Part shown: in pieces, positions 2,989 through 32,297 of the stretch
Position numbering within the stretch: the stretch's first letter is position 1
How the letters are laid out: each line of letters starts with the position of its first letter
Assembly (NCBI GenBank): GCA_036569045.1
Contig: DATCRI010000067.1
Location: 1-54,390 of the forward strand
Direction: 5' to 3'
DNA from: Chthoniobacterales bacterium
GTDB lineage: Bacteria; Verrucomicrobiota; Verrucomicrobiia; Chthoniobacterales; JAATET01
Length of the DNA: 54,390 nucleotides
Made by a program: the position numbers and the translations under genes
The notes under the pieces: model-generated
What the model was told of the DNA's origin: nothing
The model's input: the letters and a program-made list of their open reading frames with translations, nothing else
Databases searched by the model: none

Positions 2989-3050
2989 CGTTTTCCGAGA
3001 CCGCGAACTCCCCCGAACCGCCGCCCAAAAAATTTCCTCACGCGGCACGC

Positions 3051-3078: not shown

Positions 3079-3095
3079 AACCGTCCCTTCCCGAA

Positions 3096-3171
3096 GGCTG
3101 GATAGCTCAGTTGGCAGAGCAGAGGACTGAAAATCCTCGTGTCGGGGGTTCGATTCCCTCTCCAGCCACCA
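3096..3171 (+). tRNA. tRNA-Phe (anticodon GAA)
   Basis: A 76-base cloverleaf. The acceptor stem GGCTGGA pairs with TCCAGCC, the D-arm is GCTCAGTTGGCAGAGC, the anticodon loop CTGAAAA carries GAA, and the T-arm contains GGTTCGATTCC. The A discriminator and CCA end (3169-3171) are genomically encoded. Confidence 0.97.
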
Positions 3172-5220: not shown

Positions 5221-6346
5221 TTTCCCAACAGTGCTGGCCGCGAGGAAGCAGACTCTTCTTTCCGAGCTGCAATCGCGCGGGTTGCGCCTGGAGAGCGGCA
5301 TCCTGGGCGCGCCCGGGCGGAAAGGCGGTGCCGGCCCGACCGATCACAAGGCGGTAACGGTGCTCGGAACCACGATCATGGCGCCGATTCACACGGACGG
5401 CGCGGCGCGGTCGCCGTTCGTCGCGACGGCGCCGGACGCGAAGGGCGTCTCGCGGCTGGAGCAGGACGGAGAGCCGCTCTGCGAGGTGAGTTTTCCGCCC
5501 GAGCCGGCGTTCTACGGACTGAGCACGGCGGAAGGCGTGCCGTATTGGCAGATCGCGCAGCTTCACTCCCGTGACACGCTGGCGACCACGGTGCTGCAGA
5601 CGTGCATTCGCTACGGGAACGCGAGCACGAAGTGCCAGTTCTGCGCGATCGGCGAGTCGCTGCGTGCCGGACGCACGATCGCGCGCAAATCCCCGGCCCA
5701 GCTCGCGGAGGTCGCCGCGGCCGCCCAGCGGCTCGACGGCATCCGCAATGTCGTGATGACGACCGGCACGCCGGCCACGGACGATCGCGGCGCGGGCGTG
5801 CTCGCCGAGTCTGCGGCGGCGATCAAGGCGGCCACGGGGCTGCCGATCCAGGCCCAATGCGAGCCGCCGGCCGACTTTGCTTGGTTCCAGCGATTGAGCG
5901 ACGCCGGCGTGGATGCGCTTGGCATGCACCTCGAGGCGTGGGACGAGTCCGTACGCCGGCGGATCATGCCGGGCAAGGCCGAGGTGCCGCGCGCCTTTTA
6001 CATGGAGGCGTTCGACGCGGCGGTGGAGGTGTTTGGCCGCGGACAGGTGAGCACGTATCTGCTCGCGGGGCTGGGAGATTCCGCCGCGGATCTTCTCGAG
6101 GCCGCGAGGGAGTTGATCGCGCGCGGGGTGTATCCCTTCATCGTGCCGTTCGTCCCCGTCACGGGCACGCCGCTGGCGGGTCACCCGCCGCCGAGTCCCG
6201 AGTTCATGCGCGCCGTGCTCGCTCCGGTCGGCGAGTGGCTGACCGAAGCAGGCATGACGTCCGACACCGCGAAGGCCGGCTGCACCAAGTGCGCCGCCTG
6301 CTCGTCGCTTTCCGCCTTTGAAAATCGCACCGCCTGCGCGGCCTGA
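5213..6346 (+). CDS. nitD: MSMEG_0568-family radical SAM protein (NitD)
   Basis: A 377-residue radical SAM enzyme of the Nit1C cluster. The putative cluster-binding cysteines are Cys131, Cys141 and Cys144 ([17 protein letters not shown]), so the spacing is Cx9CxxC rather than the classical Cx3CxxC. A second Cys group, CTKCAACS, lies near the C-terminus and could hold an auxiliary cluster. A good Shine-Dalgarno (GGAGG) inside nitC precedes the ATG at 5213, supporting this start. The substrate is unknown; the context suggests activation or modification of a nitrile-related nitrogen compound. Confidence 0.9.
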
Positions 6347-6366
6347 ACCCGAAAATCACCCACACC

Positions 6367-6645
6367 ATGCCCGAAATTGTTCTGACCATTGAACTCCCCG
6401 ACGGGAAAGCACTGCCGTGCTACTCGCCGTCCACCATCATCCGCTCGCATTTCCAGGTCGGCGAGACCCTCACCGTCCACGAGTTTGTGCAGCGCAGCCG
6501 CGTGGCTTTCGCCGCGGCCTCCGAGCGCGTGCGTGCGCGCTACGGCTTCGCCTGCTCGGCCGCCGCGGGGCAGCTCGCCGAGATCGAGGCGCAATCCTCC
6601 CTCTACGCCGGCGACGCCGAGGTGCGCATCCTTTCCATCACCTGA
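6367..6645 (+). CDS. nitG: MSMEG_0570-family nitrogen-starvation protein (NitG)
   Basis: A small 92-residue protein starting MPEIVLTIELPDGKALPCYS with motif SPSTIIRSHFQVGETL, typical of the short conserved Nit1C protein MSMEG_0570. No membrane segment or signal peptide is visible and the molecular role is unknown. It lies 20 bases after nitD and 22 bases before nitH. Confidence 0.85.
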   Translation: MPEIVLTIELPDGKALPCYSPSTIIRSHFQVGETLTVHEFVQRSRVAFAAASERVRARYGFACSAAAGQLAEIEAQSSLYAGDAEVRILSIT

Positions 6646-6667
6646 ACCCCTGCTTCAACCCACCACC

Positions 6668-7987
6668 ATGACTCCGCGACTTTCCGAGGCGACCCGCCTC
6701 GCCCAGCCCGACAACCACTACACCGTCATCATCATCGGCGGAGGCCAGGCCGGCCTCTCGATGAGCTACTGCCTCAAGCAACGCGGCATCGACCATCTCC
6801 TCTTCGAGAAGAAGCGGGTCGGCGAGGCGTGGCGCTCCGAGCGCTGGGACACGTTCTGCCTCGTCACGCCGAACTGGCAGTGCGCCCTGCCCGGCTTCGA
6901 CTACCCGGGCGACGATCCCAAGGGGTTCATGAAGAAGGACGAGATCGTGGCCTACATCGAGGATTACGTGAGATCGTTTTCCCCGCCGGTGCGCGAGGGC
7001 GAGGCGGTCTCCCGACTCTGCCAGCTCGGCGATCACGAGTTCGAGGTCACAACGGACAAGGGCGTCTATACGGCCAACCACGTCGTCGTGGCCACGGGCG
7101 GCTTTCATCGGCCGGAGATTCCGCGAATGGGCGAGCGCCTGCCCGGCGGGATCGTGCAGATGCACTCGCTTCGTTACACGAATCCCGAGTCGCTGCCGCC
7201 CGGCGAAGTCCTCGTGGTCGGCTCCGGCCAATCCGGCTGCCAGATCGTGGAAGACCTCCATTTCACGGGTCGCCGCGTCCACCTCTGCGTCGGCGGGGCG
7301 CCCCGAACGGCGCGGCGTTACCGCGGTCGCGATGTCGTGGAATGGCTGCACGACATGGGCTACTACGACAGGCCCGTGCACGAGCATCCCGACCGCGAGA
7401 ACGTGCGCCTGAAGACGAACCACTACGTGACCGGCCGTGACGGCGGGCGCGACATCGACCTCCGGAAACTCGCGACGGAGGGCGTGCAGCTCTACGGCAC
7501 CCTCACCGATATCCGCGACGGCAGGCTGCGTTTCGCGCCCGATCTCACGAAGAACCTCGACCATGCCGACGCCGTCGCCGAGAGCATCAAGGATTCCATC
7601 GACAAATACATCGCCGCGCAGGGCATCGCCGCGCCCGAAGAGCCCCGCTACACCCCCGCCTGGGCGCCGCCGGCCGATCCCCTCGAGCTCGATCTCGCCG
7701 ACGCGAACATCAGCGCCGTGATCTGGTGCACGGGCATCCCGACCGACTACCGCTGGGTGGACATCCCGCTCTTCGACGGCAGGGGCTATCCCAGCCACGT
7801 TCGCGGCGTGACCTCCGTGCCCGGCGTCTATTTCGTCGGCCTGCCGTGGCAATACACCTGGGGCTCGGGACGGTTCTCCGGCGTCGCCCGCGACGCGTGG
7901 CATGTGGCCGACGTGATCACGAACCGCCAGCAGGCGCCGAAAATCGCCAGCGAGCAGGCCCTCAATGTCTGGGCCCTTGGCTCCTGA
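6668..7987 (+). CDS. nitH: MSMEG_0569-family flavin-dependent oxidoreductase (NitH)
   Basis: A 439-residue flavoprotein with an N-terminal FAD-binding motif (TVIIIGGGQAGLSMSY), a second dinucleotide motif around residue 180 (VLVVGSGQSGCQIVEDL) for NAD(P)H, and a linker ATGG. The layout resembles flavin monooxygenases. Within Nit1C this family is thought to oxidise a cyanide-derived or nitrile intermediate, but the reaction has not been defined. The ATG at 6668 follows CCACCACC; the much longer open frame upstream only reads through nitG in a different frame. Confidence 0.88.
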   Translation: MTPRLSEATRLAQPDNHYTVIIIGGGQAGLSMSYCLKQRGIDHLLFEKKRVGEAWRSERWDTFCLVTPNWQCALPGFDYPGDDPKGFMKKDEIVAYIEDYVRSFSPPVREGEAVSRLCQLGDHEFEVTTDKGVYTANHVVVATGGFHRPEIPRMGERLPGGIVQMHSLRYTNPESLPPGEVLVVGSGQSGCQIVEDLHFTGRRVHLCVGGAPRTARRYRGRDVVEWLHDMGYYDRPVHEHPDRENVRLKTNHYVTGRDGGRDIDLRKLATEGVQLYGTLTDIRDGRLRFAPDLTKNLDHADAVAESIKDSIDKYIAAQGIAAPEEPRYTPAWAPPADPLELDLADANISAVIWCTGIPTDYRWVDIPLFDGRGYPSHVRGVTSVPGVYFVGLPWQYTWGSGRFSGVARDAWHVADVITNRQQAPKIASEQALNVWALGS

Positions 7988-8045
7988 GGCCGCACCCCAT
8001 TTGGCATGAACTTTGCGTCAACCACGAAGTGAAGGAGTTTGCACC

Positions 8046-8648
8046 ATGATTCTCGAACGCGTCCCGCCCTACCGTCCCGCGGATTTCGTCTTCAAGGTTG
8101 CCCGGTCGCCGCACGAGCTGGCGGGCTACTGGAATCTTCGCCAGGAGGTCTTCTGCGAGGAACAGCACGTCTTCGGCGAGCACGACCGCGACGCGATCGA
8201 CGAGCGCGCGATCCCCATTATTTGCGCCACGATCATCGCCGGCATGGTGGACGAAGTCGTGGGCGCCGTGCGCATCGACGAGCGCTCGCCGCGCGAGTGG
8301 TATGGCAGCCGGCTGTGCGTGAGCAGGCCGTATCGCCGCCTGCTCGAGCTCAGCCCCGGCGTGAGCCTGCGGAATCACCAGCCCGTCTACAAGGGCTTCG
8401 GCGCGCTGGGAGCGGGGCTCATCTACAAGGCGGTCTCCCTCGCGAACGCCCTCGGCTGCGACCGCTTCCTCGCCAACGTGCAGGAGCAGAACGCCCGCTT
8501 CTTCCAGCGCCTCCACTGGCAGACGCTCGGCGAGCAGATGCTCTTCGGACGGCGGCACATTCACATGGAAGCCCAGCTCGACCGCTATCCGCCAGCGAAG
8601 CTCGTCGAGTTCGAGGCGTGTGTCGATGCCCGGGCCAAAGCCGCTTGA
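8046..8648 (+). CDS. nitE: MSMEG_0567/Sll0786-family GNAT N-acetyltransferase (NitE)
   Basis: A 200-residue GNAT-fold protein; LRQEVFCEEQHVF and GFGALGAGLIYKAVSLANAL fit the family. The AAGGAG Shine-Dalgarno six bases upstream fixes the start at 8046. It belongs to the Nit1C set, and its substrate is unknown. The end overlaps nitF by about 23 bases, so the two are probably coupled. The 58-base gap between nitH and this gene is the largest in the operon and could hold an internal promoter, though I see none clearly. Confidence 0.87.
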   Translation: MILERVPPYRPADFVFKVARSPHELAGYWNLRQEVFCEEQHVFGEHDRDAIDERAIPIICATIIAGMVDEVVGAVRIDERSPREWYGSRLCVSRPYRRLLELSPGVSLRNHQPVYKGFGALGAGLIYKAVSLANALGCDRFLANVQEQNARFFQRLHWQTLGEQMLFGRRHIHMEAQLDRYPPAKLVEFEACVDARAKAA

Positions 8649-9594
8649 CGAACTCGTTCGCGCCCTGCGCGCGCACCCGAACGTCCGCGAGAAGCTCCAC
8701 ATCGCCTCCGCCTACGCGCCGGCGCTTTCCGTCGCGGGCTCCGTGGCGGTTGGCGACGACGCGTCCGCGATTCCCGACGGGGACGGCTACCTCCTGCTGG
8801 CCGCGGAGGGCATGATGGAGGCATTCATCGAGCGCGATCCGTGGTTTGCGGGGTATTGCGCGGTGATGGTCAATATCAGTGACATCGCCGCCATGGGCGG
8901 GCATCCCACCGCCATCGTCGATGTGCTTTGGGCCCACGAAGATTCCGTCGTCGCGCGCGAGATCTGGGCCGGGATGCAGGCGGCCAGCGTCGCCTATGAC
9001 GTGCCCATCGTGGGCGGGCACACCACGCGCTTTCCAGCGGAACGCACGCCGCTGCTTGCCGCGGCGGTGCTTGGCCGTGCGCGAAAGCTGATCAGCAGCT
9101 TCGCCGCACGCCCGGGCGACGACCTGCTCATGGCCGTGGATCTGCGCGCCGCCTACCGCGGGGAAGGGACGCTTTTCTGGAACGCCAGCGTCGGCAGCCC
9201 CGCCGGGCGTCTGCGCGGCGATCTCGACCTGCTGCCGGAGCTCGCGGAGGCCGGCCTCGTCACCGCCGGGAAGGATATCAGCAACGGCGGCGTGCCCGGC
9301 ACGCTCTCCATGTTGCTTGCGACATCACGATGCGGCGCGACGCTCGATCTCGACGCGCTCCCGCAGCCCGATGGCGTGGAACTCGAGCGCTGGCTGCTCT
9401 CCTTCCCGAGCTACGGATTCCTGCTGACCGCGGACCCCGCGCATACGAATGCCGTGGCCGAGAAGTTTCGCGAGCGCGGACTCACCTGCGCGCGCATCGG
9501 CCGGCTCGACTCCGGCCCGGCCATCCATTTCACGCAAGGCGGAGCGACCGCCGAATTTGTGCGTGTCCACGGGGAGCCATGGCGAAATCCTTGA
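8626..9594 (+). CDS. nitF: AIR synthase-like protein, Sll0787 family (NitF)
   Basis: About 322 residues with PurM/AIR-synthase architecture. There is a glycine-rich, Asp-containing N-terminal half (VAVGDDASAIPDGDGYLLLA, then MVNISDIAAMGGHPTA) and a C-terminal half with GKDISNGGVPGTL. Such proteins (PurM, HypE, ThiL, SelD) bind ATP to activate an oxygen or carboxyl group. HypE makes a nitrile on HypF/HypE, which is a suggestive parallel in a nitrilase cluster but not evidence of the same chemistry. A GTG at 8620 is an alternative start. Confidence 0.87.
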   Translation: MPGPKPLDELVRALRAHPNVREKLHIASAYAPALSVAGSVAVGDDASAIPDGDGYLLLAAEGMMEAFIERDPWFAGYCAVMVNISDIAAMGGHPTAIVDVLWAHEDSVVAREIWAGMQAASVAYDVPIVGGHTTRFPAERTPLLAAAVLGRARKLISSFAARPGDDLLMAVDLRAAYRGEGTLFWNASVGSPAGRLRGDLDLLPELAEAGLVTAGKDISNGGVPGTLSMLLATSRCGATLDLDALPQPDGVELERWLLSFPSYGFLLTADPAHTNAVAEKFRERGLTCARIGRLDSGPAIHFTQGGATAEFVRVHGEPWRNP

Positions 9595-10607
9595 ACATGG
9601 CCGAGGTGGCCCGCACGATGGGCGTTTCGGCCTCCACCGTCTCGCGCGCCCTGCGCAACGACCCGCGCATCAGCCCCTCGGTGCGGGAACGAGCGCGGCT
9701 GATCGCCGAGGAAATGGGCTATCGCCCGAATCCCCTCGTGAGCGCGCTCATGTCCACGCGCCGGCGGCGCGCCGGAAACGGCGAGGTGGACGTCATCGCT
9801 CTCGTCACGCATTACGGCGGCCCGCAGGACTGGCGGGCAAAGGACGTGTGCCGATGGGAGTTCAACGGCATCCAGGCGCGCGCCGACGCGCTTGGGTTTC
9901 GCATCGAGATATTCTCGCTCAACGCGTATCGCGGGAATGCGGATCGCCTGGCGGCCACCCTGCGCACGCGCGGCATCCGCGGCGTGTTGCTGGGCTTCGC
10001 CCGCGAGGAGGAGGAAATCGCGTTTCCAATGGAGGGATTCGCCGTGGCGGGACTAAGCGCGTATTTTCGGAACATCACCGTCGATCGCGCGAACTTCCAC
10101 GGCTTCTTCAACGTCCAGCTCGCGCTCGACGAAATCCGCCGCGCCGGCTATCGCCGTCCCGCGCTCGCCGTGCCCGAGTTCAACAATCGCCTCTCGAACA
10201 ATCTCTGGTCAGGCGCCTTCCTCGACTGGCAGCGCAGCGTGCCGAAGAAGGATCAATGCGCGCCTTTCATCCCCTCGGGAGATGTCGATCCCGCATGCTT
10301 CTACGACTGGCTCTATCGCAACAATCCCGACGCCCTGCTCGTTTACAAGCTGCCGCTCCGCAGTCTGCTCGCAAAGAAGAAGATATGGGTGCCTCAGGAC
10401 ATCGGCCTCGCCTACCTCTACCGCACCGCTGACGAAATGGGTGGCGCGGCGGGCATCGATGGCAACCTTTCCGCTGTGGGCGCGGCCGCGCTCGACCTTG
10501 TCGTCGAGAAGCTGAATACGAACGCACTCGGCGCGGGTCCCCTCCCGAAGGAAGTGCTCATCAAAGGACGCTGGCAAAGCGGTGACACGCTGCCATTGGT
10601 GAAATAA
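9579..10607 (+). CDS. LacI-family transcriptional regulator
   Basis: A 342-residue protein. The N-terminal helix-turn-helix is MAEVARTMGVSASTVSRALR followed by the hinge region YRPNPLVSALMSTRR. The C-terminal part resembles a periplasmic-binding-protein-like effector domain. The gene overlaps nitF by 16 bases on the same strand, so it is very probably transcribed with the Nit1C operon and a candidate for its control. The effector is unknown, and it may instead regulate distant sugar genes. No clear LacI palindrome was seen near the nitB start. Confidence 0.85.
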   Translation: MAKSLNMAEVARTMGVSASTVSRALRNDPRISPSVRERARLIAEEMGYRPNPLVSALMSTRRRRAGNGEVDVIALVTHYGGPQDWRAKDVCRWEFNGIQARADALGFRIEIFSLNAYRGNADRLAATLRTRGIRGVLLGFAREEEEIAFPMEGFAVAGLSAYFRNITVDRANFHGFFNVQLALDEIRRAGYRRPALAVPEFNNRLSNNLWSGAFLDWQRSVPKKDQCAPFIPSGDVDPACFYDWLYRNNPDALLVYKLPLRSLLAKKKIWVPQDIGLAYLYRTADEMGGAAGIDGNLSAVGAAALDLVVEKLNTNALGAGPLPKEVLIKGRWQSGDTLPLVK

Positions 10608-13803: not shown

Positions 13804-13831
13804 ATTAGTCGCAGAGCCGCTTGATTCCTTA
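13804..13831 (-). promoter_or_regulatory. ECF-type promoter motif, copy 2
   Basis: On the minus strand TAAGGAATC (13823-13831), 11 bases, CGACTAAT (13804-13811). The TAA of the first box is the stop codon of the upstream NRDE gene. It drives the CxxC microprotein pair. Confidence 0.75.
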
Positions 13832-14575
13832 CGCCGCAGCGCACGGAATCTGCCGAGACAGTCGCAACGCCTTCACGAACCGGGGGCCGCGTTCACAGGC
13901 CGGCCCCGCATGATACGACATCGTCGCGGAGCTCCCGGTCACCGAGAGTTCGGTGAAACTCACCGTGCACGCATCGATCCGATGCATGCAGATCGAGAGC
14001 GCGCCCTTGGAGGGATGGTGCGAACGATGGAGATCACGCAGCCAGGCCGGGGAAGCTGGCGGCGCCAGCCGCGAGGCCCGCGCACAGGTGAGCGCCCGCA
14101 CGCGATTCGCCGCCGCCTCGTCGAAGCCGGAGGAAAACCAATGTCGCCGCTCCCAGGAAAACGAGGTCCCTTCCAGATTTCCGCCGCTCGACTTCCACTC
14201 GCACAACGCTCGCTCCCGACGGGAAATCACGATCAGACGAAACGGATTCATCGACGCGACAGGGAGCGCTCCAAAATGAGCCTCCGCATCCGCGACTGTC
14301 GCCGCCCCGAGCAGGGCCGGGATCACCTCTCCCCGACTGACCGTGCCGGCCCGAAGGCGCTGCGGCTCGGAATACCAGTTGATCAGCGCGAAGGTGAGCC
14401 CGACGGCATTGACACCGATCCACGTCCCCCCGCTCCATTCGTGCGGGTAGAGCGCGCGGAAGGCGCCGCATTTCGCAATCCGTGGAGGCAGCGCCGCTCT
14501 TCGGGAAAGCTGCTCGTCGCGATTCATCGCGAGATGGAAGCCGTCGCCGGCGGGAAGAAAGGAAACCGTGCACAT
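13829..14575 (-). CDS. NRDE-domain (TANGO2-like) protein
   Basis: 248 residues starting MCTVSFLPAGDGFHLAMNRD; the N-terminal Cys after Met and the NRDE motif (NRDEQLSRR) are family hallmarks. TWIGVNAVGLTFALINW also fits. In eukaryotes TANGO2 relates to haem or lipid handling; the bacterial function is poorly defined. The N-terminal Cys2 could act as an Ntn-type nucleophile. The start lies five bases after the DedA/ATP-grasp gene, so it is the last gene of the DoxX operon. The stop codon doubles as the beginning of ECF motif copy 2. Confidence 0.82.
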   Translation of the reverse strand: MCTVSFLPAGDGFHLAMNRDEQLSRRAALPPRIAKCGAFRALYPHEWSGGTWIGVNAVGLTFALINWYSEPQRLRAGTVSRGEVIPALLGAATVADAEAHFGALPVASMNPFRLIVISRRERALCEWKSSGGNLEGTSFSWERRHWFSSGFDEAAANRVRALTCARASRLAPPASPAWLRDLHRSHHPSKGALSICMHRIDACTVSFTELSVTGSSATMSYHAGPACERGPRFVKALRLSRQIPCAAA

Positions 14576-14580
14576 GGTCG

Positions 14581-16191
14581 TCAGTCCGCGAGGGGATGGC
14601 AGGTGCTCCGCTGCCGGTAGCGGCGAAGTTCCGTCCAGAGCGCGCCGAGGGAATCCGCGCGATGGCCGGCCCGGCGATTGGCGGCGCCGATGGCGAAGAC
14701 GAGTTCCCATTGCTGAAAGAGCAACCGATAGGCCTCGCCGAGCGACTTGCGCGCGTCGTAGGCACTGGTGGCCTCGGACGCCGCGCCATTGAGCTCGAGA
14801 ATGGAAAATCCGCCTCCGCTCTGCAGCTCCGCGACGGACTCGAATCGCACATCGTAACGGCCGATGAAAAAACCCGGCAGCGCCCGCGAGATGTCGTCGA
14901 TGCGCCTCTCGAGGCCCGCGCTCCACAGGTGCATCCCGTCCTGGAAAATGCAGCCCTGCGCGTGATTGCCCGCCTCCACGAGACGCACCGCTTCGCCGAA
15001 TGCCGGCACGCGCGCCCGTTCGGAAGCGAAACGCCGGAGGTAAACGTCGGCGAGCAGCACGGCCCGCGCGTCCGCAAGAATCAACTCCTCCAGCGTGCGC
15101 CGCCCGTCGCCGAAAACCACCGGAAAGATTTTTTCCGTGATGGCGAAGATACGACCCTCGTGCTCGTGCGGCAGCCGGTAATAGAAAATGCCGATTTCCT
15201 GCGGCCCGCGAATGTATTCCTGGGCGACGATGGCGACATCCACGGTGGAAAGATACGCCCCGGCGTCCGCCATCGACCGGACGACCTTGAATCCGCTCCC
15301 GCGCTGGGCCACATCGGGCTTCAGCACGAACGGAAACGATAGCTGACCCGAGGCCACAAGCGCCTCCAGATGCGCAAGACGTTCCCCACCCTCCGCGAGG
15401 AGAAAGCTGTTCGCCGTCCACTCCGGGCTCGTGCGTTGGAGATCCGCCAGCGTCGCGAATTTCGATTCGCCGATCAGTCCGCCCGTGAACATCCCGGGAT
15501 TCGCGCAGGTCGGAACGTTGAAGCCGCCATATTTCAGAGCGAGGCGGACGTAATTCGCGCCGATCGGCAGATAGAAAAGCCATGCGGGCCAGAACTCCCA
15601 CTGCACCCAGCGCTGCACGCGGGGCGATCCGAGGCGGCGCCGGAGCACGGAGCCCCAATGCCCCGCGCAGACCGCGAGAAGGCCGAGAGCGATCGCGACG
15701 ACGCCTCCGACGATCGCTCCATGCGAGCTCCCCGCGAACATCCCGACCGCGGCTCCGAACTGGCGCACGAGCCCAAACACCAGCCCCACCCAAAGCACCG
15801 CCAGCGCGGCGGTGATCGCCGTGAACTTCGCGACGGGCATGCGCAACAATCCGGCCGTGGCGAACGTGGGCAGCCGCGATCCGGGAACGAATCGGCACAG
15901 CACGAGAGCCCAGCCGCCGAATCGCGCGAACCAGGTCTCGCTTTGCTTGATCTTCTGCGCCGTCTGCGCTTTGCGCAGCCAAAGGCGCTCGAGAATCGGG
16001 CGTCCAAAATTGCGCGCGAGCAGGAACAGCCCGAGGTCGCCAAGCCAGATGCCGAGCACGCAGGCCAGGAACGCGGTGTCGGGGGACATCCGGCCGAGCG
16101 AAGACAGCGCCGCGCCGCCGAGAGTCGCGGCATCCTCCGACACGAAGGTCAAAAGGAACAGGCCGACGGCGCTGGTCGTGTCGAGATTCAT
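14581..16191 (-). CDS. DedA/VTT membrane domain fused to an ATP-grasp-like ligase domain
   Basis: 536 residues. Residues 1-180 form a DedA/SNARE-associated (VTT) module with several membrane segments and the motif CRFVPGSRLPTFATAG; DedA proteins handle lipid scrambling or proton-driven transport. After a short linker, residues ~200-510 look like an ATP-grasp enzyme: FVLKPDVAQRGSGFKVV (Lys291), EYIRGPQEIGIFYY and FSILELNGAASEATSAYD. The C-terminal part may ligate or modify a substrate presented at the membrane. This fusion is not one I recognise as characterised. The start at 16191 follows the DinB-like gene by five bases. Confidence 0.8.
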   Translation of the reverse strand: MNLDTTSAVGLFLLTFVSEDAATLGGAALSSLGRMSPDTAFLACVLGIWLGDLGLFLLARNFGRPILERLWLRKAQTAQKIKQSETWFARFGGWALVLCRFVPGSRLPTFATAGLLRMPVAKFTAITAALAVLWVGLVFGLVRQFGAAVGMFAGSSHGAIVGGVVAIALGLLAVCAGHWGSVLRRRLGSPRVQRWVQWEFWPAWLFYLPIGANYVRLALKYGGFNVPTCANPGMFTGGLIGESKFATLADLQRTSPEWTANSFLLAEGGERLAHLEALVASGQLSFPFVLKPDVAQRGSGFKVVRSMADAGAYLSTVDVAIVAQEYIRGPQEIGIFYYRLPHEHEGRIFAITEKIFPVVFGDGRRTLEELILADARAVLLADVYLRRFASERARVPAFGEAVRLVEAGNHAQGCIFQDGMHLWSAGLERRIDDISRALPGFFIGRYDVRFESVAELQSGGGFSILELNGAASEATSAYDARKSLGEAYRLLFQQWELVFAIGAANRRAGHRADSLGALWTELRRYRQRSTCHPLAD

Positions 16192-16196
16192 CGACG

Positions 16197-16715
16197 TCAG
16201 GCGGCCAGCCGCTCCTGCTCGTGCTTGATCGTGGAGGGCGCGACGCCGAATCCATCGGGAAGCGTCGCGCCAAGCATCTGCGCCATCACGCCAACGAGCG
16301 CGTAATGATGGATGGCGTGGACGATGCCGAACATGATCTCGCGCCCAACGGTCGACTCCGCCGTCGACGATTCGCCCGCAGCGTAGGAGACCTTCGCACG
16401 CACCCGGATGGGGCGATCGAGCACCGCCGCATCGAGCGACTCGATCTCGCGCAACTGTCGACGCGTGGCCGCCAGCGCCGCGATCCGGACATTCTCGATG
16501 CGAGGGTCCCGCGTGCGGGCGTCGTAGTTGATCTCGTCGGCATCGAGTCCGTCCAGCACGCTGCGGAAATGGTCGAGGCAATGGCGAACATGGCCGCCGA
16601 TCGAGGCATTGAAGGCAGCCGGAAGTCGGGTCGCGTAGGCGACATCGTCCAGCGCGAGCAGGAGCGCGGAGCCCTGCGCAAGCACTTCGCGGGCGGATTC
16701 GAGAAGCGCGTTCAT
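16197..16715 (-). CDS. DinB/YfiT-like putative metal-binding protein
   Basis: 172 residues predicted as a four-helix bundle. Candidate metal ligands are His45/His49 (HVRHCLDHF) and His133/His137 (VHAIHHYA), the DinB-superfamily arrangement. Superfamily members include thiol-dependent transferases (bacillithiol, mycothiol) and damage-inducible proteins; nothing here picks a substrate. Its ATG overlaps the DoxX stop codon by four bases, so it is translated with doxX and lies in the ECF-controlled operon. Confidence 0.8.
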   Translation of the reverse strand: MNALLESAREVLAQGSALLLALDDVAYATRLPAAFNASIGGHVRHCLDHFRSVLDGLDADEINYDARTRDPRIENVRIAALAATRRQLREIESLDAAVLDRPIRVRAKVSYAAGESSTAESTVGREIMFGIVHAIHHYALVGVMAQMLGATLPDGFGVAPSTIKHEQERLAA

Positions 16716-17119
16716 CGGGCGATCAGACTGCCGACGACCGGAATGGAGCGGCGATAAATGAGAAGGAGAATCGCGGAGCAAAGCGCGACGACCAGCGCGA
16801 GGCCGAAGAGCAGCCCGTGATCGCCCTGCACCTCGATGCCGAGCACGGTGAGATGGCTCATGATCGCGCCGCCGATCACGCCCAGGGCGAGCGCCGCGCC
16901 GAGCCAGGTGAGACCGGGCACGAAGAGAAGAACGGCCGCAATGAGCTCGAAGACGCCGGAGCCAATGCGCCCCCACGGCTCGAGGCCGACCCTGGTGAAG
17001 ATGTAGACGGATTCCGGCGCGGCCGTGAATTTGAAGAATAGCGTCTGCAGCAGAATGACGGCGGCGACGACGCGACAGATCCAGGCGATGATGATTTCGG
17101 GTTTGGTGATGGAGTTCAT
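16712..17119 (-). CDS. DoxX-like membrane protein
   Basis: 135 residues with four membrane segments (about 8-27, 50-70, 75-95 and 103-122) and motifs RVVAAVILLQTLFFKFTAAP and GVFELIAAVLLF, typical of DoxX/DoxD-like proteins. These are often found in thiol/oxidative stress operons with ECF sigma factors. It is the first gene of a four-gene minus-strand operon (DoxX, DinB-like, DedA/ATP-grasp, NRDE). The second promoter box ends 10 bases before its ATG. Confidence 0.85.
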   Translation of the reverse strand: MNSITKPEIIIAWICRVVAAVILLQTLFFKFTAAPESVYIFTRVGLEPWGRIGSGVFELIAAVLLFVPGLTWLGAALALGVIGGAIMSHLTVLGIEVQGDHGLLFGLALVVALCSAILLLIYRRSIPVVGSLIAR

Positions 17120-17171: not shown

Positions 17172-17876
17172 TCATTTTGGGAGCCACCCGCCGGTGGCCT
17201 GGATGGGCGCGGGGTCGCCCGCGGCGTGCACCCAGACAGCCACGGAGGAAATCGGAGCCGGTGTTTTCCTCGGCAGGTCGACTGCCGCGGTGAATTCCCC
17301 CTCGTGCGGCTCGTGCGGCTCGTGCGGCACCGAGAGGAGCGCGAGGGCGACGAATTCGTGAGCGAGCTTGCGGCCCGCGTTCTCCCCGCGACGCACGTCG
17401 ACCGCGATGTCGTTGGCCAGCGGCGCAATCTCGGCGACAAGCGGACCGGGGACCTTTCCTGCCGCACGGAAGGTGATCGCGATCCGCCCCGACGGATCGA
17501 CCGTGGCGCGGAGTCTTCCTTCCCTGGCGGAAGGCAGAACGACGAGGCCTTCCCGCCCGTTGCTCACGAAGGCGGGCGTGTAGATGGTCTCCGCGCGCCA
17601 GCGGGCCGCGTAGTTACGCTGGCGCTGCGCGAAGGCTGGCGACGCGAAGCGATCAGGCCAGCCGAGGTCGTCCCAGTAGTTCACGTGGAAGGCGACCGGA
17701 ACGACCTCCGACCAAAGACCGGGATCCCTGCGAAGGCCGGCCAGACTCTCCTCCGCCGGCGGGCAACTGCTGCATCCCTCGGAGGTGTAGAGCTCCACGA
17801 GCGTGGCCCGATCCTCTCCGCTCTCGAAGACGACAGGCCCGGCCATCATCGCGAGGAGCACACCGATCAGCCACAT
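17172..17876 (-). CDS. DUF1223-family secreted thioredoxin-fold protein
   Basis: 234 residues. An N-terminal hydrophobic stretch (WLIGVLLAMMAGPVV) is a likely signal sequence. LVELYTSEGCSSCPPAEESL is the DUF1223 hallmark with a CxxC active-site-like motif, and FHVNYWDDLGWPDRF is also conserved. A small tandem repeat encodes HEPHEPHE near the C-terminus. The role is probably envelope redox; the partner is unknown. It starts two bases after the YHS gene and is likely translated with it. Confidence 0.85.
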   Translation of the reverse strand: MWLIGVLLAMMAGPVVFESGEDRATLVELYTSEGCSSCPPAEESLAGLRRDPGLWSEVVPVAFHVNYWDDLGWPDRFASPAFAQRQRNYAARWRAETIYTPAFVSNGREGLVVLPSAREGRLRATVDPSGRIAITFRAAGKVPGPLVAEIAPLANDIAVDVRRGENAGRKLAHEFVALALLSVPHEPHEPHEGEFTAAVDLPRKTPAPISSVAVWVHAAGDPAPIQATGGWLPK

Positions 17877-17878
17877 GG

Positions 17879-18328
17879 CTATTTCCCCTTCTTTTCGACG
17901 ATCCCGGGCCAGTTCGCGTCGGCCTTCTTCAAGTTGCCCGCGGTATCGGCGCTGAATTTCTCGCGGACATCGAGATCGTATTGGAGAAGCAGGCGCCCAT
18001 CCACGATCTGGAAGGCCTCCGGGGTGATTCCCGCCGTGGAATTCTTCGAGACCGCGTAGGCGCAGAAGCCGCCGAACTGCGGCTCGTATTTCGCGGGATC
18101 CTTGTCGAACGCGGCCTTGTGGTCCGCCGATGCGAAGTAATAGATCGCGCCCTTGTCGGAGCTCTGGAACTTCGCGTCGCCCTTCACGGCCTTGCCGTCG
18201 GTGAAGTAGGCGACGGGATCGTAGCCCCTGATGGCGACACCGCTCCAGTTGACGTTGACGAGGTCCTTTGCGAAAGCGGCGGTGGCTAGCGCAAGCAGCA
18301 CAGCAGTGGTGGTAACGAGACGTTTCAT
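17879..18328 (-). CDS. YHS-domain secreted protein
   Basis: 149 residues with a signal peptide (MKRLVTTTAVLLALATAAFA). The YHS-type metal-associated domain reads IRGYDPVAYFTDGKAVKGD, YYFASADHKAAFDKDPAKY and GFCAYAVSKN. Such proteins are widespread envelope proteins of unknown detailed function, possibly copper- or haem-linked. It lies 168 bases after the GMC gene with no ECF motif of its own in that gap, so it could be read from the GMC promoter or a separate unseen one. Its leader CGAAATCCACATC-ATG resembles that of CxxC microprotein B. Confidence 0.85.
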   Translation of the reverse strand: MKRLVTTTAVLLALATAAFAKDLVNVNWSGVAIRGYDPVAYFTDGKAVKGDAKFQSSDKGAIYYFASADHKAAFDKDPAKYEPQFGGFCAYAVSKNSTAGITPEAFQIVDGRLLLQYDLDVREKFSADTAGNLKKADANWPGIVEKKGK

Positions 18329-24314: not shown

Positions 24315-25649
24315 CAGCGCACAGCCCTCGACGCACGCACCGGCAGCCAGAACGAGATCTTCACGCCACGGCGCAGCGGCGACCTGGACGCCGATCGGCA
24401 GCCCCGCCGCGGTCTTCGCCACGGGAACCGAAAGTGCGGGCCAGCCGGTGAGATTGTGCAGCATCGTGTGCGCGAATCCAGGAAAGCAGTCATCGTCGAA
24501 CGAGCGCCCATGCCGGAGCGCAGGAAACGGACAGACCGGCGAAACGAGCACGTCGAACGCCCGTGCCGCCTCCCCCATGCGCCGCCGGAAGGCGCGCCAC
24601 CGGGCAAGCACGGCTTCGACATCGGTCGCCTTCCCGCGCTCGCAGACGCCGAGCACGATTTCCATGAACGGCGAAATTTCCGTCGTGCCGCTCGCGGCGA
24701 GAACCTCGCGGAACGCCTCGCCTCCATCGGCCGTCCACATCGCCAGCGTGAGGTCGAAGGTCTCCTCGACGCCCGGGAGCAGGACGGGTTCGACGCAAGC
24801 GCCCGCGGACGCGAGTGCCCGGCATGCTGCGTTCACGACCTCGCCAATCTCGGACGTCGGCGCGGCAAGACCGCCGCTCGTGAAGAACCCGACACGAAGC
24901 CCGCCGATCGAGACTTTTCCCGGATCGGGCACCTCGCTCTCCGACAACACGGGCAACAGGAGCACGAGGTCCTCCACGGTGCGCGCCATCGGGCCGAGCT
25001 GCGTCGTGAGGTCGGCGGGCGCGCCTGGCGGCACGATGTGGCCGGCCTTGGAAATGCGGCCGTCGGTCGCCTTCAGCCCCGCCGTGCCGCAGAAATGCGA
25101 CGGCACGCGGATGCTCCCGCCCGTGTCGCTGCCGATGTCGAACGCCGCTCCGCCGGCCGCGAGGATCGCCGCCGCGCCGCCGCTGCTGCCGCCGGGCGTG
25201 AGGTTCGCATCGAGAGGATGGTTCACCCGTCCGTGCAGGAGATTCGCGGTCTCGTAGGCCATCGTGAGCTCGGGCGTGGTCGTGCGGCCGAGCAGGATCG
25301 CCCCGGCGTCGCGCAGCCGGCGCATCACGGAGGAATCCTCGCGCGGCACGAAATTCCGCCGTCCCTGCGTGCCGCCGGTCGTCACCACACCGGCCACGTT
25401 GAGGTTGTCCTTGAGCGTCATCGGCACGCCGTGCAGCGGCCCGAGGAGTTCGCCGCGCGCGATGGCGGCGTCTGCCCGGCGGGCGGCGTCGAGAGCCGCA
25501 TCCGCCGTGAGCAGGCATACGGCATTGATCGCCGGATTCACTGCCTCGATGCGACGCCGGTGCGCCTCGACGACCTCGACGACGGAAAGTTCCCGATCCC
25601 GAATCGCGCGCGCGATCGCCGTCGCCGATTCGAAGATCCCGCCGCTCAT
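24312..25649 (-). CDS. Amidase signature (AS) family hydrolase
   Basis: 445 residues with the full amidase core: Lys80 (PMTLKDNLNVAG), the cis-Ser region TPGGSSGGAAA (Ser155/156) and nucleophile Ser179 (DTGGSIRVP). The family hydrolyses amides; members include indoleacetamide hydrolases, GatA and fatty-acid amidases. There is no gatB/gatC nearby and the substrate is unknown. The ATG at 25649 overlaps the stop of the ZAS gene by four bases, so it belongs to the sigma/anti-sigma operon. A longer upstream frame is only a read-through of that gene. Confidence 0.88.
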   Translation of the reverse strand: MSGGIFESATAIARAIRDRELSVVEVVEAHRRRIEAVNPAINAVCLLTADAALDAARRADAAIARGELLGPLHGVPMTLKDNLNVAGVVTTGGTQGRRNFVPREDSSVMRRLRDAGAILLGRTTTPELTMAYETANLLHGRVNHPLDANLTPGGSSGGAAAILAAGGAAFDIGSDTGGSIRVPSHFCGTAGLKATDGRISKAGHIVPPGAPADLTTQLGPMARTVEDLVLLLPVLSESEVPDPGKVSIGGLRVGFFTSGGLAAPTSEIGEVVNAACRALASAGACVEPVLLPGVEETFDLTLAMWTADGGEAFREVLAASGTTEISPFMEIVLGVCERGKATDVEAVLARWRAFRRRMGEAARAFDVLVSPVCPFPALRHGRSFDDDCFPGFAHTMLHNLTGWPALSVPVAKTAAGLPIGVQVAAAPWREDLVLAAGACVEGCAL

Positions 25650-25993
25650 TCCTCGCCGCGGAGTTTCCGCTTCATTCGTTCCTTCGCGTCGTCGGGCATC
25701 GTGAACGTCTCGAGATTGCTGACGCGTTCGGGGAAGTTGCGGCTGAAGCGGCGGAGCAGATGGAGCTGCTGCTCGTAGCGCTGGCACCAGCAGCAGATGA
25801 GGTAGTGAAAGCGGAGCTGGATGCGCGTGCGCAGCGGCAGCGGCCCGTCGAGCGATTGCGAGAGGATGCGCACGACATCGCGGCACTTCGGCGTGTGGCG
25901 ACCGATGAACTTCACGAGCTGCGTCTCGAGCCAGCTGCGGCGCTTGAGCAGGGAGGGGTTGCCGATGGGCGTGGGATTGTATTCGTCCGCCAT
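25646..25993 (-). CDS. ZAS-type (zf-HC2-like) anti-sigma factor
   Basis: 115 residues. Cys37 (CRDVVRILSQSLDG) together with His63, Cys67 and Cys70 (HYLICCWC) gives the zinc-binding anti-sigma signature; an additional Cys68 is present. No membrane helix is visible, which points to a soluble, possibly redox-sensing anti-sigma factor in the manner of RsrA or ChrR. It overlaps the ECF sigma gene by three bases and the amidase gene by four, the usual arrangement of a sigma/anti-sigma pair. Confidence 0.82.
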   Translation of the reverse strand: MADEYNPTPIGNPSLLKRRSWLETQLVKFIGRHTPKCRDVVRILSQSLDGPLPLRTRIQLRFHYLICCWCQRYEQQLHLLRRFSRNFPERVSNLETFTMPDDAKERMKRKLRGEE

Positions 25994-26586
25994 CAGTGGC
26001 CCTCCGGCGGGTTCTCGCGATCGAACCAGTTCATCTCCAGGCACTCGCGCAGCGCCATCCGCGCGCGGTGGAGCATCACCCAGAGATTGCTCTCGGTGAT
26101 GGACAGCATGCGGCAGATTTCCTTGCTCGGCACCTCCTCCATCTCGCGCAGCGAAAATACGTCGGCCACGCGCTGGGGCAGCTTGCCCATGCAGTCGCGC
26201 ATCGTCTGCCAGAACTCGTCCCGGTGCGCGACCTCGTCGGCCTGCTTCCAGTCGTGCGGGCCGCGGTCGTGATTCCAGAAGCCCTGCTCGACGAACTTGT
26301 GCGCGCACTCGTCCTTGAGGAATTCCATGTCGGTGAACGTCGTCTCGCGCCCGAGCTTCCGGTAGTGATCGACGATCTTGTTCTTCAAAATGCCCACGAG
26401 CCAGCTCCTCTCGGAAGATCGTCCGGCGAAGCGCTCCTGCGTGCGCACGGCCGCGAGCAGCGTGTCCTGCACGAGATCCTCGGCCACTTCCTGGGTGCGC
26501 ACGCGGACGAACGCGTAGCGAAACAGGCAGTCGCCGTGGTCATCCACCCAGCGGGTGGGGTCGGCAGCGGACGGGTGCGATTCCAT
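25993..26586 (-). CDS. ECF-type RNA polymerase sigma factor
   Basis: 197 residues. Region 2 (~16-80) includes DCLFRYAFVRVRTQEVAEDL and SWLVGILKNKIVDHYRKLGR. After a ~55-residue linker, region 4 (~135-190) includes LPQRVADVFSLREMEEVPSK and ICRMLSITESNLWVMLHRAR. The ATG at 26586 is preceded by AGGGAGA. It is presumably the factor that reads the eight TAAGGAATC-N11-CGAC motifs in this locus. I do not see that motif in front of its own gene, so autoregulation is not evident. Confidence 0.9.
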   Translation of the reverse strand: MESHPSAADPTRWVDDHGDCLFRYAFVRVRTQEVAEDLVQDTLLAAVRTQERFAGRSSERSWLVGILKNKIVDHYRKLGRETTFTDMEFLKDECAHKFVEQGFWNHDRGPHDWKQADEVAHRDEFWQTMRDCMGKLPQRVADVFSLREMEEVPSKEICRMLSITESNLWVMLHRARMALRECLEMNWFDRENPPEGH

Positions 26587-26659
26587 GAATTCTCCCTGGA
26601 CGAAAAGGTTCGCCGGCGCACTTCCTACTCCTCCCGCTCGCGCGTTGGAAAGGCTTTTG

Positions 26660-26687
26660 TAAGGAATCCCGCGCGGCAGCGACGAAT
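26660..26687 (+). promoter_or_regulatory. ECF-type promoter motif, copy 7
   Basis: TAAGGAATC, 11 bases, CGACGAAT, 20 bases before the SDR start and in the divergent gap next to the ECF sigma gene. Confidence 0.8.
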
Positions 26688-26707
26688 CGGGCGAACTTCC
26701 ATTTGCC

Positions 26708-28246: not shown

Positions 28247-30853
28247 ATGGCCCGCAAGACTCCCGCCGCACCCTCCTCCATCGATCTCTCCTGGCGCCGC
28301 TGGGGCCCGTATCTCAGCGAGCGCCAGTGGGGCACAGTGCGCGAGGATTACAGCCCGCATGGCAACGCCTGGGAGTATCTCCCCCACGACCACGCCCGCA
28401 GCCGCGCCTATCGCTGGGGCGAGGACGGCATCGCCGGCTGGAGCGATCACCACCAGCGCCTCTGCCTCTCGCTCGCACTTTGGAACGGCAGCGACGCGAT
28501 CCTGAAGGAGCGCCTCTTTGGCCTCACGAACAGCGAGGGCAACCACGGCGAGGACTGCAAGGAGCTCTACTACTACCTCGACGCGACGCCGGAGCAGACC
28601 TGGCTGCGGATGCTCTACAAATACCCGCAGCGCGCGTTCCCCTACGCCGATCTCGTCGAGACGAACCGCCGCCGCGGCAGGCACGAGGCCGAATATGAGT
28701 TGCTCGACACCGGCGCGTTCGACGAAGACCGCTACTTCGACGTGTTCGTCGACTACGCGAAGCCCGACGCGGACTCCGTGCAGATGCGCGTCACCGTCCA
28801 CAACCGCGGCCCCGAGGACGCCACGATCCACCTTCTCCCGCAGCTCTGGTTCCGCAACACCTGGTCGTGGAAGCCCGGCCAGCCGCGGCCTCACCTCGCC
28901 GCGCGCGACGAGCAATCGATCACCGCGCACCACGCCGACCTCGGCGACTACGAGTTCCTCGTCGAGGGCGCCGACGCCTGGCTCTTCACCGAGAACGAGA
29001 CGAATACGCGCCGCCTCCACGGCAGCGACGCGAGCGGGTATTTCAAGGACGCCTTTCACGAGGCGATCGTCGACGGTCGCCGCGACGCCGCGAATCCACT
29101 CACCGGCACGAAAGCCGCCGCGCACCTCGAGCGCGTCGTGCCCGCCGGCGGCGCGATCACGCTGCGGGCTGTGCTGCGCCCGCGCGGCGAGGGCGACCCC
29201 TTCGCGCGCTTCGACGAAATCTTCGCCAAGCGCCTCGCCGAGGCCGATGCCTTTTACGCCCGACTGCAAAAGGACATCGCCGACGCGGACGCCCGCCACG
29301 TCCAGCGTCAGGCGCTCGCCGGCATGATCTGGAGCAAGCAGTATTTCTACTACGACGTCCCCGAGTGGCTGCGCGGCGATCCCTCCCAGCCCGCGCCTCC
29401 CGCCGAGCGCCGCCACGGCCGCAACGCCGAGTGGCAGCATCTTAACAATGCCGACGTGGTCTCGATGCCCGACAAGTGGGAATACCCGTGGTATGCGGCC
29501 TGGGACCTCGCCTTCCACACCATCGCCCTCGCGCTCGTCGACACCGACTTCGCCAAGTCGCAGCTCCTGCTCATGACGCGCGAGTGGTATATGCACCCGA
29601 ACGGCCAGCTGCCCGCCTATGAGTGGGCGTTTGGCGACGTGAACCCGCCCGTCCACGCGTGGGCCACGTGGCGCGTCTTCGAGATCGAGCGCGAAAAGAC
29701 CGGTGGCCCCGGCGATCTCGCCTTCCTCGAGCGCGTCTTCCACAAGCTCATGCTGAACTTCACCTGGTGGGTGAATCGCAAGGACGCGCAGGGCCGCAAC
29801 ATCTTCCAGGGCGGCTTCCTCGGCCTCGACAACATCGGCGTCTTCGACCGCAGCGCGCCTCTGCCCACCGGCGGCCACATCAACCAGGCCGACGGCACGA
29901 GCTGGATGGCGATGTATTCGCTCAACCTCATGCGCATCGCCCTCGAGCTCGCGCAGCACAACGCCGTCTACGAGGACATCGCCACGAAATTTTTCGAGCA
30001 CTTCCTCCACATCGCCGAGGCGATGAACGACATCGGTGAAAGCGGCATCGGCCTGTGGTGCGACAGCGACGAGTTCTACTACGACGTCCTCAACTTGCCC
30101 GGTGGCCGCATGATCCCGCTGAAGGTCCGCTCCATGGTCGGCCTCATCCCGCTCTACGCCGTCGAGGTGCTCGAGCCCGGGCTGCTCGAGAAAGTTCCCG
30201 CCTTCGCCGAGCGGTTGAAGTGGTTCCTCGACTACCGCCCCGACCTCGCTGCGCTCGTCTCCCGCTGGGAGGCGCCCGGCATGGGCGACACGCACCTCCT
30301 CTCGCTCCTGCGCGGTCACCGCATGAAGTGCCTGCTCCGGCGCATGCTCGACGAGACGGAATTCCTCTCCGATCACGGCATCCGCGCCGTCTCCAAATTC
30401 CACGAGGCGCACCCCTACACCTTCGGCTGCTGCGGGAGCGAAGTCGGTGTGAGCTACCAGCCTGGCGAATCCGACAGCGGCCTCTTCGGCGGCAACTCGA
30501 ACTGGCGCGGCCCCATCTGGATGCCCGTGAACTACCTGCTCGTCGAATCGCTCCGCCGCTTCCACCGCTATTACGGCGACGATTTCCGGGTCGAATGTCC
30601 CACCGGCTCCGGCACTTTCCTCACGCTCGCCGAGGTCGCCGACGAACTCGCCCGGCGACTCGCGAGCTTGTTTCTGCGGAATAAGGACGGCCGCCGCGCG
30701 CTCTACCACGGGAACGAACGCATGCAGACCGACCCGCATTTCCGCGACCACGTGCTCTTCCACGAATACTTCCACGGCGACACCGGCCGCGGCGTCGGCG
30801 CCTCGCACCAGACCGGCTGGACCGGCCTCGTCGCCAACCTCCTCGCGCCATGA
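28247..30853 (+). CDS. GH63-like glucosidase
   Basis: 868 residues, cytosolic (no signal peptide). The beginning [20 protein letters not shown] with the end [20 protein letters not shown] is typical of bacterial MOGS-like GH63 glucosidases. An (alpha/alpha)6 catalytic region lies in the C-terminal half ([30 protein letters not shown]). Likely substrates are alpha-glucosides such as glucosylglycerate or trehalose-type solutes, an inference from family members. It overlaps the OlsB-like gene by four bases and leads an operon behind ECF motif copy 8. Confidence 0.88.
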
Positions 30854-31584
30854 AAACGCTCGCCGCCCCACGTTACGCCACCCGCCTCGCCACCACGCAC
30901 CGCGAGGTCGAGGCCGCCCTGCGGCTCCGCTACGAAGTCTTCAACCTCGAGCTGAACGAGGGGCTCGAATCCTCCCACGCCACCGGCCAGGACGAGGACG
31001 CCTTCGACCCCGTCTGCGACCACCTCCTCGTCACCGACGAGACGACTGGCGCCGTCGTCGGCACCTACCGCATGCAGACCGGCCCCATGGCCCGCCAGCA
31101 CCTCGGCTACTACAGCGAGCAAGAGTTCGACTTCGCGCCCTACGAGCCCATCCGCCCCGAGCTCGTCGAACTCGGCCGCGCCTGCGTCCACCGCGACCAC
31201 CGCACGCTCCGCGTCGTCAGCCTCCTCTGGCGCGGCATTGCCGACTACGCCGCCGCTCACCACGCCCGCTACCTCATCGGCTGCAGCTCGCTCACGTCGC
31301 AGGACGCCGCCCTCGGCCATGCCACCTTTCACCAGCTCGCGAAGAGCCACCTCGCCGCTCCCGATCTGCGCACGACACCGCTCCCGGAATACACCCTCCC
31401 GCCCGCCGAGCCGCCCCCAGCCTGCCCCGCGCCGCCCAAACTCCTCCGCGCCTACCTCAGCCTCGGTGCAAAAATCTGCGGCCCGCCCGCCATCGATCGC
31501 GCCTTCCGGACGATCGACTTCCTCACGTTGATGGATTGCCGGGCGCTTCCCGCAATCGTGACCGAGCATTTCCGTCCCGCATGA
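30850..31584 (+). CDS. OlsB-like N-acyltransferase (ornithine-lipid synthesis)
   Basis: 244 residues of the GNAT-type acyltransferase family (Acetyltransf_5): LRLRYEVFNLELNEGL, VVGTYRMQTG, RPELVELGRACVHRDHR and ARYLIGCSSLTSQD. OlsB attaches a 3-hydroxyacyl chain from ACP to ornithine, giving lyso-ornithine lipid. The next gene is a lysophospholipid-type acyltransferase (OlsA role), which supports the assignment. Start and stop overlap both neighbours by four bases. Similarity to haemolysin-like acyltransferases means the amine acceptor is not certain. Confidence 0.78.
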   Translation: MKTLAAPRYATRLATTHREVEAALRLRYEVFNLELNEGLESSHATGQDEDAFDPVCDHLLVTDETTGAVVGTYRMQTGPMARQHLGYYSEQEFDFAPYEPIRPELVELGRACVHRDHRTLRVVSLLWRGIADYAAAHHARYLIGCSSLTSQDAALGHATFHQLAKSHLAAPDLRTTPLPEYTLPPAEPPPACPAPPKLLRAYLSLGAKICGPPAIDRAFRTIDFLTLMDCRALPAIVTEHFRPA

Positions 31585-32297
31585 GCTTCCTTCGCGCTGC
31601 GACCCGCCTTCTCCTTCTCACCGGCCTCGTGCTGGCAAGCCTGCCTGCCGGATTTGGAGATCGCCCATCGGCCCAGCGAGCCCGCTGGATGCAGCGCCTC
31701 AGCCGGCGCATTCTCCGAGTGCTCGGCGCCACGGTTGAAATCCGCGGCGAAATCCCGTCCCACGGCCTCGTCGTCTCCAACCACCTCGGCTACCTCGACG
31801 TCTTCGTCATTGGCTCCGTCGTTCCGGCCATCTTCGTCGCGAAAAGCGACGTCCGCGACTGGCCAGTCGTCGGCCTGCTCTGCCAGCTCGCGGGCACCCT
31901 CTTCGTCGACCGCGACCGTCGCCTTTCGGTGAGCGCGAACCTCCCGGCGATCCGCGCCGCGCTGGATTCCGGCCTCCCCGTCGTCATCTTCCCCGAGGGC
32001 ACGAGCAGCGATGGCGCCACCGTCCTTCCCTTCAAGGCCTCCCTTCTGGGAGCGGGAAAGGGTCACCTCTCGACTCCCGCCGCAATCGCCTACGACCTTC
32101 CCGGCGGATCCGTCGCGGACGAGCTTTGCTACTGGCGCGACATGACCTTCGGCCCGCATTTCTGGAACGTTCTCGGCAAGCGCGGCTTCCGCGCCCGCCT
32201 GCACTTCGGTCCGCAACGACCGCCCGCCGCAAATCGGAAAATCCTGGCGCAGGAACTCCACGCCGAGATCGCCGTTCTCCGGAACTCGGCAAGGTAG
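31581..32297 (+). CDS. PlsC-family acyltransferase (OlsA-like)
   Basis: 238 residues with an N-terminal membrane segment (~8-25), the acyltransferase motif NHLGYLD (NHx4D), FVDRDRRLS and FPEGTSSDGA. In the pair with the preceding OlsB-like gene it would add the second acyl chain and complete ornithine lipid. A role as general 1-acylglycerol-3-phosphate acyltransferase cannot be excluded. It is the last gene of the operon begun by GH63. Confidence 0.82.
   Translation: MSFLRAATRLLLLTGLVLASLPAGFGDRPSAQRARWMQRLSRRILRVLGATVEIRGEIPSHGLVVSNHLGYLDVFVIGSVVPAIFVAKSDVRDWPVVGLLCQLAGTLFVDRDRRLSVSANLPAIRAALDSGLPVVIFPEGTSSDGATVLPFKASLLGAGKGHLSTPAAIAYDLPGGSVADELCYWRDMTFGPHFWNVLGKRGFRARLHFGPQRPPAANRKILAQELHAEIAVLRNSAR

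Follow-up and report, generated by a model that had tools for sequence, protein, structure and literature searches.

A gene on the minus strand of the window, the whole stretch of 54,390 nucleotides that was analysed, genuinely fuses a DedA/VTT membrane domain, of the kind that transports lipids, to an ATP-driven ligase of the ATP-grasp type. The encoded protein, P0001, may well be a membrane-anchored, ATP-dependent carboxylate-amine ligase that extends the headgroup of OlsB/A/F-type aminolipids and is coupled to membrane lipid handling, a reading to which we give roughly an even chance. The fold, the conserved catalytic residues and the operon linkage of relatives to OlsB, OlsA, OlsF, DinB and NRDE genes are described below, together with the explanations that compete with this one.

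The fusion gene

Translation of the plus strand between 14581 and 16191 yields no gene, the protein being encoded on the minus strand (Table 1). Within it are found all three motifs cited in a preliminary description of this DNA: CRFVPGSR (residues 99-106), KPDxxxRGSG as KPDVAQRGSG (291-300), and LELNG (465-469). Full-length fused homologues, 48-57% identical to P0001, occur on independent contigs (L021, L022 and L023) labelled as Alphaproteobacteria, Verrucomicrobia and an unclassified MAG. The fusion is considered real because it recurs at full length on these contigs, and the frameshift or assembly join that the preliminary description had raised is ruled out by equal fusion in independent genomes. 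Loss of the ATP- and metal-binding residues, the other weakness it had foreseen, was also looked for; these residues are kept in 76-81 of 81 relatives, so P0001 is not two genes joined by a frameshift, nor is it a dead enzyme. An open frame of 814 aa at 13829-16273 (minus strand, in the NRDE frame) spans the whole DedA gene and looks like an artefact of frame openness in GC-rich DNA.

Table 1. Coordinates of the fusion gene, its parts and associated genes in the window.
Feature	Position	Strand	Remarks
DedA/VTT::ATP-grasp fusion protein P0001, 536 aa	14581..16191	minus	ATG at 16191, stop at 14583-14581
DedA/VTT membrane part	15606..16191	minus	residues about 1-195
ATP-grasp ligase part	14581..15603	minus	residues about 197-536; starts with hydrophobic segment WEFWPAWLFYLP
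NRDE/TANGO2-family protein	13829..14575	minus	next gene of the run; Cys2, Ntn-hydrolase-like by family
DinB_2-superfamily protein	16197..16715	minus	metal-ligand-type His residues
DoxX-like membrane protein	16712..17104	minus	E 4.6e-5, below Pfam cut-off; conserved neighbour
DUF1223 protein	17172..17876	minus	in the run; elsewhere no conserved partner
YHS-domain exported protein	17879..18328	minus	first gene of the run
OlsB-like N-acyltransferase	30850..31584	plus	NF052554, 7e-46
OlsA-like O-acyltransferase	31536..32297	plus	NF052553, 2e-37

The ATP-grasp domain

Structure prediction bears out the assignment of the C-terminal half, which had first been made from motifs. The AlphaFold (AF2) model of P0001 (pLDDT 93.5, pTM 0.81) has an ATP-grasp fold, and residues 208-505 align with cyanophycin synthetase 1 (CphA1; 7wae) at Z 17.3 over 267 residues. 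Further matches are LysX/ArgX (Z 16.1) and the bifunctional glutathione synthetase GshF (Z 15.4), with CphA, LysX and GshF all scoring above Ddl; in its fold the domain is thus nearest to enzymes that act by extending the carboxylate of a peptide or amino acid. The PDB matches listed for P0001 span residues 201-509 only, and the DedA half is not judged by its absence there. In the window protein itself the domain is too diverged for naming by Pfam, the RimK family (PF08443) scoring 11.2 bits against a cut-off of 21 (E 0.29). RimK is matched by 40 of the 81 relatives (best 3e-8), and a profile of eight relatives retrieves CphA-type and GshF structures (1.3e-6).

Six positions, K291, G298, E332, K354, G363 and D447, are invariant in the 81-row alignment, while E466 is kept in 78 rows and N468 in 76. 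P0001 thus has the ATP-binding lysines (K291 and K354), the glycine-rich RGxG loop and the Mg ligands (D447, E466 and N468) of an ATP-grasp enzyme. Exceptions at E466 and N468 mostly belong to one deep clade, L086-L091, which also lacks the usual neighbours. Its members (about 7300-10000) are hydrolase-VTT-ATP-grasp proteins devoid of E466/N468-type metal ligands and of DinB/NRDE neighbours, and are candidate pseudo-ligases. Enzymes of the ATP-grasp superfamily form an acyl-phosphate on a carboxylate, which is then attacked by an amine; by analogy, this is most likely the reaction of the ligase as well.

The membrane domain and its counterparts

The VTT/DedA family (PF09335) matches residues 36-142 of P0001 (E 2.2e-15; 57.6 bits against a cut-off of 33.9), in agreement with the preliminary description. 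Charged residues are conserved in the membrane segments as in other DedA/VTT proteins: D20, D52, R100 and R106 are present in all 50 fused rows, and position 19 is Glu in 48 and Asp in 2.

Where the ligase is unfused, a membrane protein is often close by. In Salinivibrio and Vibrio, VTT and the ligase are encoded side by side by two genes, and in Paracoccus denitrificans the ligase, a hydrolase and a VTT protein are encoded by separate neighbouring genes, of which the VTT one lies on the other strand. A LysE translocator gene lies 1-31 bp downstream of a ligase copy in 14 of 31 unfused loci, all from Bacteroidota, although these come from related genomes and may reflect few events; beside the ligase of the fused loci examined, none was found. 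LysE-family translocators are amino-acid exporters. The presence of LysE in Bacteroidota, and of a fused DedA domain or adjacent VTT gene elsewhere, suggests that ligation is tied to a membrane transport step and that this role is filled by two different families.

Distribution and architectures

Among sampled genomes, the ligase was found in 39 of 387 from the window's phylum and in 46 of 247 from Bacteroidota, as well as in plasmid or chromid records of Azospirillum, Paracoccus, Komagataeibacter, Vibrio, Salinivibrio, Photobacterium and Variovorax. It is a widespread family, extending to Proteobacteria, and apparently undescribed so far. Homologues are currently annotated as hypothetical, VTT-domain protein or D-alanine--D-alanine ligase, and searches of the open-access PMC literature that paired ATP-grasp with DedA or with NRDE/DinB, or DedA with OlsB, gave nothing relevant.

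Three architectures are evident: the ligase alone (about 350 aa), VTT::ligase, and alpha/beta-hydrolase::VTT::ligase (about 810-1060 aa), the hydrolase and VTT domains of the latter both being confirmed by Pfam in L062. In a quick tree the unfused ligases of Bacteroidota mostly fall into a single clade, and 11 changes of architecture are required overall. One unfused close relative of P0001 (L002/L093, 63% identical) has apparently lost its DedA domain. The Ser nucleophile of the fused hydrolase is retained in only 16 of 37 fusions, so this domain is probably not a required catalyst. On one Bacteroidota contig (L025), ligase paralogues at 2084-3139 and 5710-6771 flank a single DoxX-DinB-NRDE set.

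Gene neighbourhood

In the window the fusion gene belongs to a run in the order YHS, DUF1223, DoxX, DinB, DedA::ligase and NRDE, all on the minus strand and separated by no more than about 70 bp. The DoxX and NRDE neighbours named in the preliminary description are confirmed, and DinB, YHS and DUF1223 join them. Its placement of the gene in an ECF operon does not hold, as the ECF sigma gene (25993-26832, minus strand) is separated from the YHS gene by 7.7 kb that include genes on the plus strand. What was meant is probably the ECF sigma factor and zf-HC2 anti-sigma gene at 25646-26832, which are not contiguous with the DedA run. An ECF-like gene adjoins DoxX in L068 and L072. Elsewhere in the window, a GNAT and AIR-synthase-related pair (8013-9594) resembles the nitrogen-starvation genes Sll0786/Sll0787.

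DinB and NRDE/TANGO2 proteins are near-constant neighbours of the ligase. They were found beside it in 28 and 26, respectively, of a first set of 45 loci, and DinB in 32 of 40 Bacteroidota ligase loci. The DinB His residues are kept in 60/60 proteins and the NRDE Cys2 in 41/42.

Linkage to ornithine-lipid genes

Homologues of OlsB, OlsA and OlsF were identified by Pfam and NCBIfam; all score well under the equivalog cut-offs. One or other of them lies beside the ligase in about 27 loci, within 6 kb of it in 11 of the first 45 and in 16 of the 40 from Bacteroidota. The Bacteroidota operon runs OlsB-OlsA-DinB-hydrolase::VTT::ligase, and wherever a Bacteroidota genome has a standalone OlsB as well as the ligase (20 genomes), the two share a contig and are 2.3-2.9 kb apart. 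A homologue of P0001 with 50% identity (L022) lies in an uninterrupted row of OlsB-OlsA-YHS-DoxX-DinB-VTT::ligase-NRDE, while in Variovorax an OlsB-like gene follows the ligase by 10 bp. On the chromid of Vibrio sp. THAF191d (L177, 6310-12037), VTT, ligase, DinB, NRDE, YHS, DoxX and OlsF are separate contiguous genes; this seven-gene run of a cultured organism carries no annotation in its record.

Co-occurrence across genomes points the same way. Standalone OlsB is present in 20 of 46 ligase-positive but 9 of 201 ligase-negative Bacteroidota genomes (p=1.5e-10, shared ancestry ignored), and any Ols/Gls synthase in 36/46 against 63/201. For the window's phylum the latter comparison gives 20/39 against 86/348 (p=1e-3, shared ancestry ignored). 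At the thresholds used, OlsB, OlsF and GlsB were all absent from 10 of 46 ligase-positive Bacteroidota genomes and from 19 of 39 in the window's phylum, and the substrate of the ligase therefore cannot always be an OlsB-type lipid.

Operon linkage to the Ols/Gls gene set is a feature of the relatives; in the window the two share only the 54-kb contig. The OlsB at 30850..31584, the only one detected in this genome, and its OlsA lie 14.7 kb from the fusion gene on the other strand, outside its operon. They are followed up to 38205 by another acyltransferase, an FAD-dependent halogenase-like protein and LolA-like and MMPL-exporter-like ORFs, a gene set reminiscent of an aryl-polyene type cluster.

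Several narrower assignments were considered and rejected. The ligase is probably not the serine-glycine lipid (flavolipin) enzyme of Bacteroides, as it was found in none of the eight sampled genomes with a Bacteroides-type GlsB above cut-off, and these lipids thus probably need another enzyme. The fused alpha/beta-hydrolase, seemingly mutually exclusive with OlsBA in the window's phylum, is no substitute for it, given that they share one operon in Bacteroidota. Taurine, guessed as a substrate from the taurine-ornithine lipid of Acetobacteraceae, found no clue in the neighbours of the Komagataeibacter homologues (a methyltransferase, an iron redox enzyme and arsenic genes).

Proposed function and alternatives

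In the proposed pathway, OlsB (or OlsF) would N-acylate an amino acid and OlsA would O-acylate the product, and the resulting ornithine-type lipid would still have its carboxylate free. Using ATP/Mg, the ATP-grasp domain on the cytosolic side would phosphorylate this carboxylate and couple it to an amine, either an amino acid or similar, lengthening the headgroup by one amide bond. The DedA domain would offer the lipid to the ligase, carry substrate or product across the inner membrane, or do both, and DinB and NRDE may process or edit the new headgroup. Headgroup extension is the most economical reading because a carboxylate stays free in the products of OlsB/A/F and is the group that the nearest ATP-grasp relatives extend. 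That a ligase held in the membrane modifies a lipid, as the preliminary description envisaged beside a peptide, is now better supported than by sequence alone, since relatives sit in OlsB/OlsA/OlsF operons; its example, a possible head-group aminoacylation, comes close to the best explanation. More tentatively, and at less than even probability, a single polypeptide would both couple the carboxylate of the ornithine-type lipid to an amino acid (or to an amine resembling taurine) and move the product across the membrane. Counting against an aminolipid substrate are the synthase-less genomes, the distance of the window OlsBA, the failure to identify any substrate-binding residue in the ligase and the loss of metal ligands in L086-L091.

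Alternatively, the ATP-grasp domain might make an N-acyl amino acid from a fatty acid and an amino acid, in parallel to OlsB or replacing it, with the hydrolase as an OlsI-like O-acyltransferase. The triple-fusion loci of the window's phylum, none of which has an Ols gene nearby, would fit, as would the alpha/beta-hydrolase OlsI, a lyso-ornithine-lipid O-acyltransferase in Singulisphaera (PMC12493201). The only open-access PMC literature retrieved on ATP-grasp and ornithine lipid is a review, which cites N-acyl-histidine formation by an ATP-grasp enzyme in Legionella (PMC11631085). However, the Bacteroidota triple fusion adjoins OlsB and OlsA, which already perform both steps, and the incomplete retention of the hydrolase nucleophile also speaks against this route, which we regard as unlikely.

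A biosynthesis and export cassette for a small molecule such as a thiol or peptide, in which the combination of ATP-grasp ligase, DinB and Ntn-hydrolase-like NRDE would recall glutathione/ergothioneine-type chemistry, with DedA or LysE as exporter and the Ols linkage as a shared stress regulon, seems similarly improbable. It would account for the greater constancy of DinB (60 proteins) and NRDE (about 41) as partners compared with Ols, for the LysE exporters, and for the YHS, DoxX and, at some loci, ECF neighbours, which suggest stress. Yet tight, overlapping OlsB-OlsA-DinB-ligase operons, for example L156, exceed co-regulation, and the hydrophobic WExWP entry segment of the ligase is conserved even where it is unfused. 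A cell-wall role, in which a Ddl-like ligase and a UptA-like undecaprenyl-phosphate flippase modify peptidoglycan precursors, is very unlikely, for despite the D-alanine--D-alanine ligase annotations and UptA being the top NCBIfam score of the DedA part, that score is 49.2 against an equivalog cut-off of 250, Ddl_archaea reaches 18.3 against 500, the structure is nearer CphA/GshF/LysX than Ddl, and the recurrent neighbour families include Ols genes but none recognised as a cell-wall gene.

Comparison with known systems

With CphA1 and GshF, which extend a carboxylate with an amino acid, the ligase has in common the ATP-grasp fold, the KP..G and GDG..T..EL motifs and the D/E/N metal ligands; those enzymes, however, are soluble and multidomain with other partners, have neither membrane domain nor lipid operon, and are only about 18% identical. 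Like DedA/UptA, the membrane half has a VTT domain in which acidic and Arg residues are conserved, but it is far below the UptA equivalog cut-off and carries a C-terminal ligase. MprF, the lysyl-phosphatidylglycerol synthase/flippase, likewise fuses a headgroup-modifying domain to a lipid-moving membrane domain, by analogy only, as it uses aminoacyl-tRNA and its fold is unrelated to that of the ligase. In many relatives the ligase shares an operon with the N- and O-acyltransferase genes of the OlsBA, OlsF and GlsBA systems. Reviews of aminolipids describe two acylations and later modifications such as hydroxylation, and neither names a headgroup ligase (PMC11631085, PMC10191378). The OlsH/OlsI pathway also combines ATP-dependent amide formation with an alpha/beta-hydrolase in an aminolipid operon, but OlsH is a GH3 adenylating enzyme rather than an ATP-grasp one, and DedA, DinB and NRDE are unreported there (PMC12493201).

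Implications

Two-part aminolipid headgroups, such as glycine-serine and ornithine-taurine, are chemically known. To our knowledge, no enzyme has been described that adds the second building block to an ornithine-type amino-acid lipid, and the flavolipin pathway is stated to be unknown in a review (PMC10191378). An ATP-grasp ligase tied genetically to OlsB/A/F and to a lipid-transporter domain offers a concrete and testable candidate for the enzyme that lengthens headgroups in other lineages. Functional assignment of such a common gene would correct many annotations and would suggest a function for the adjoining DinB and NRDE/TANGO2 proteins. If the proposal is true, a one-polypeptide lipid ligase would represent a new, membrane-embedded class, and an unrecognised branch of phosphorus-free membrane lipids would be common to genomes of the Verrucomicrobia, Bacteroidota and Proteobacteria types.
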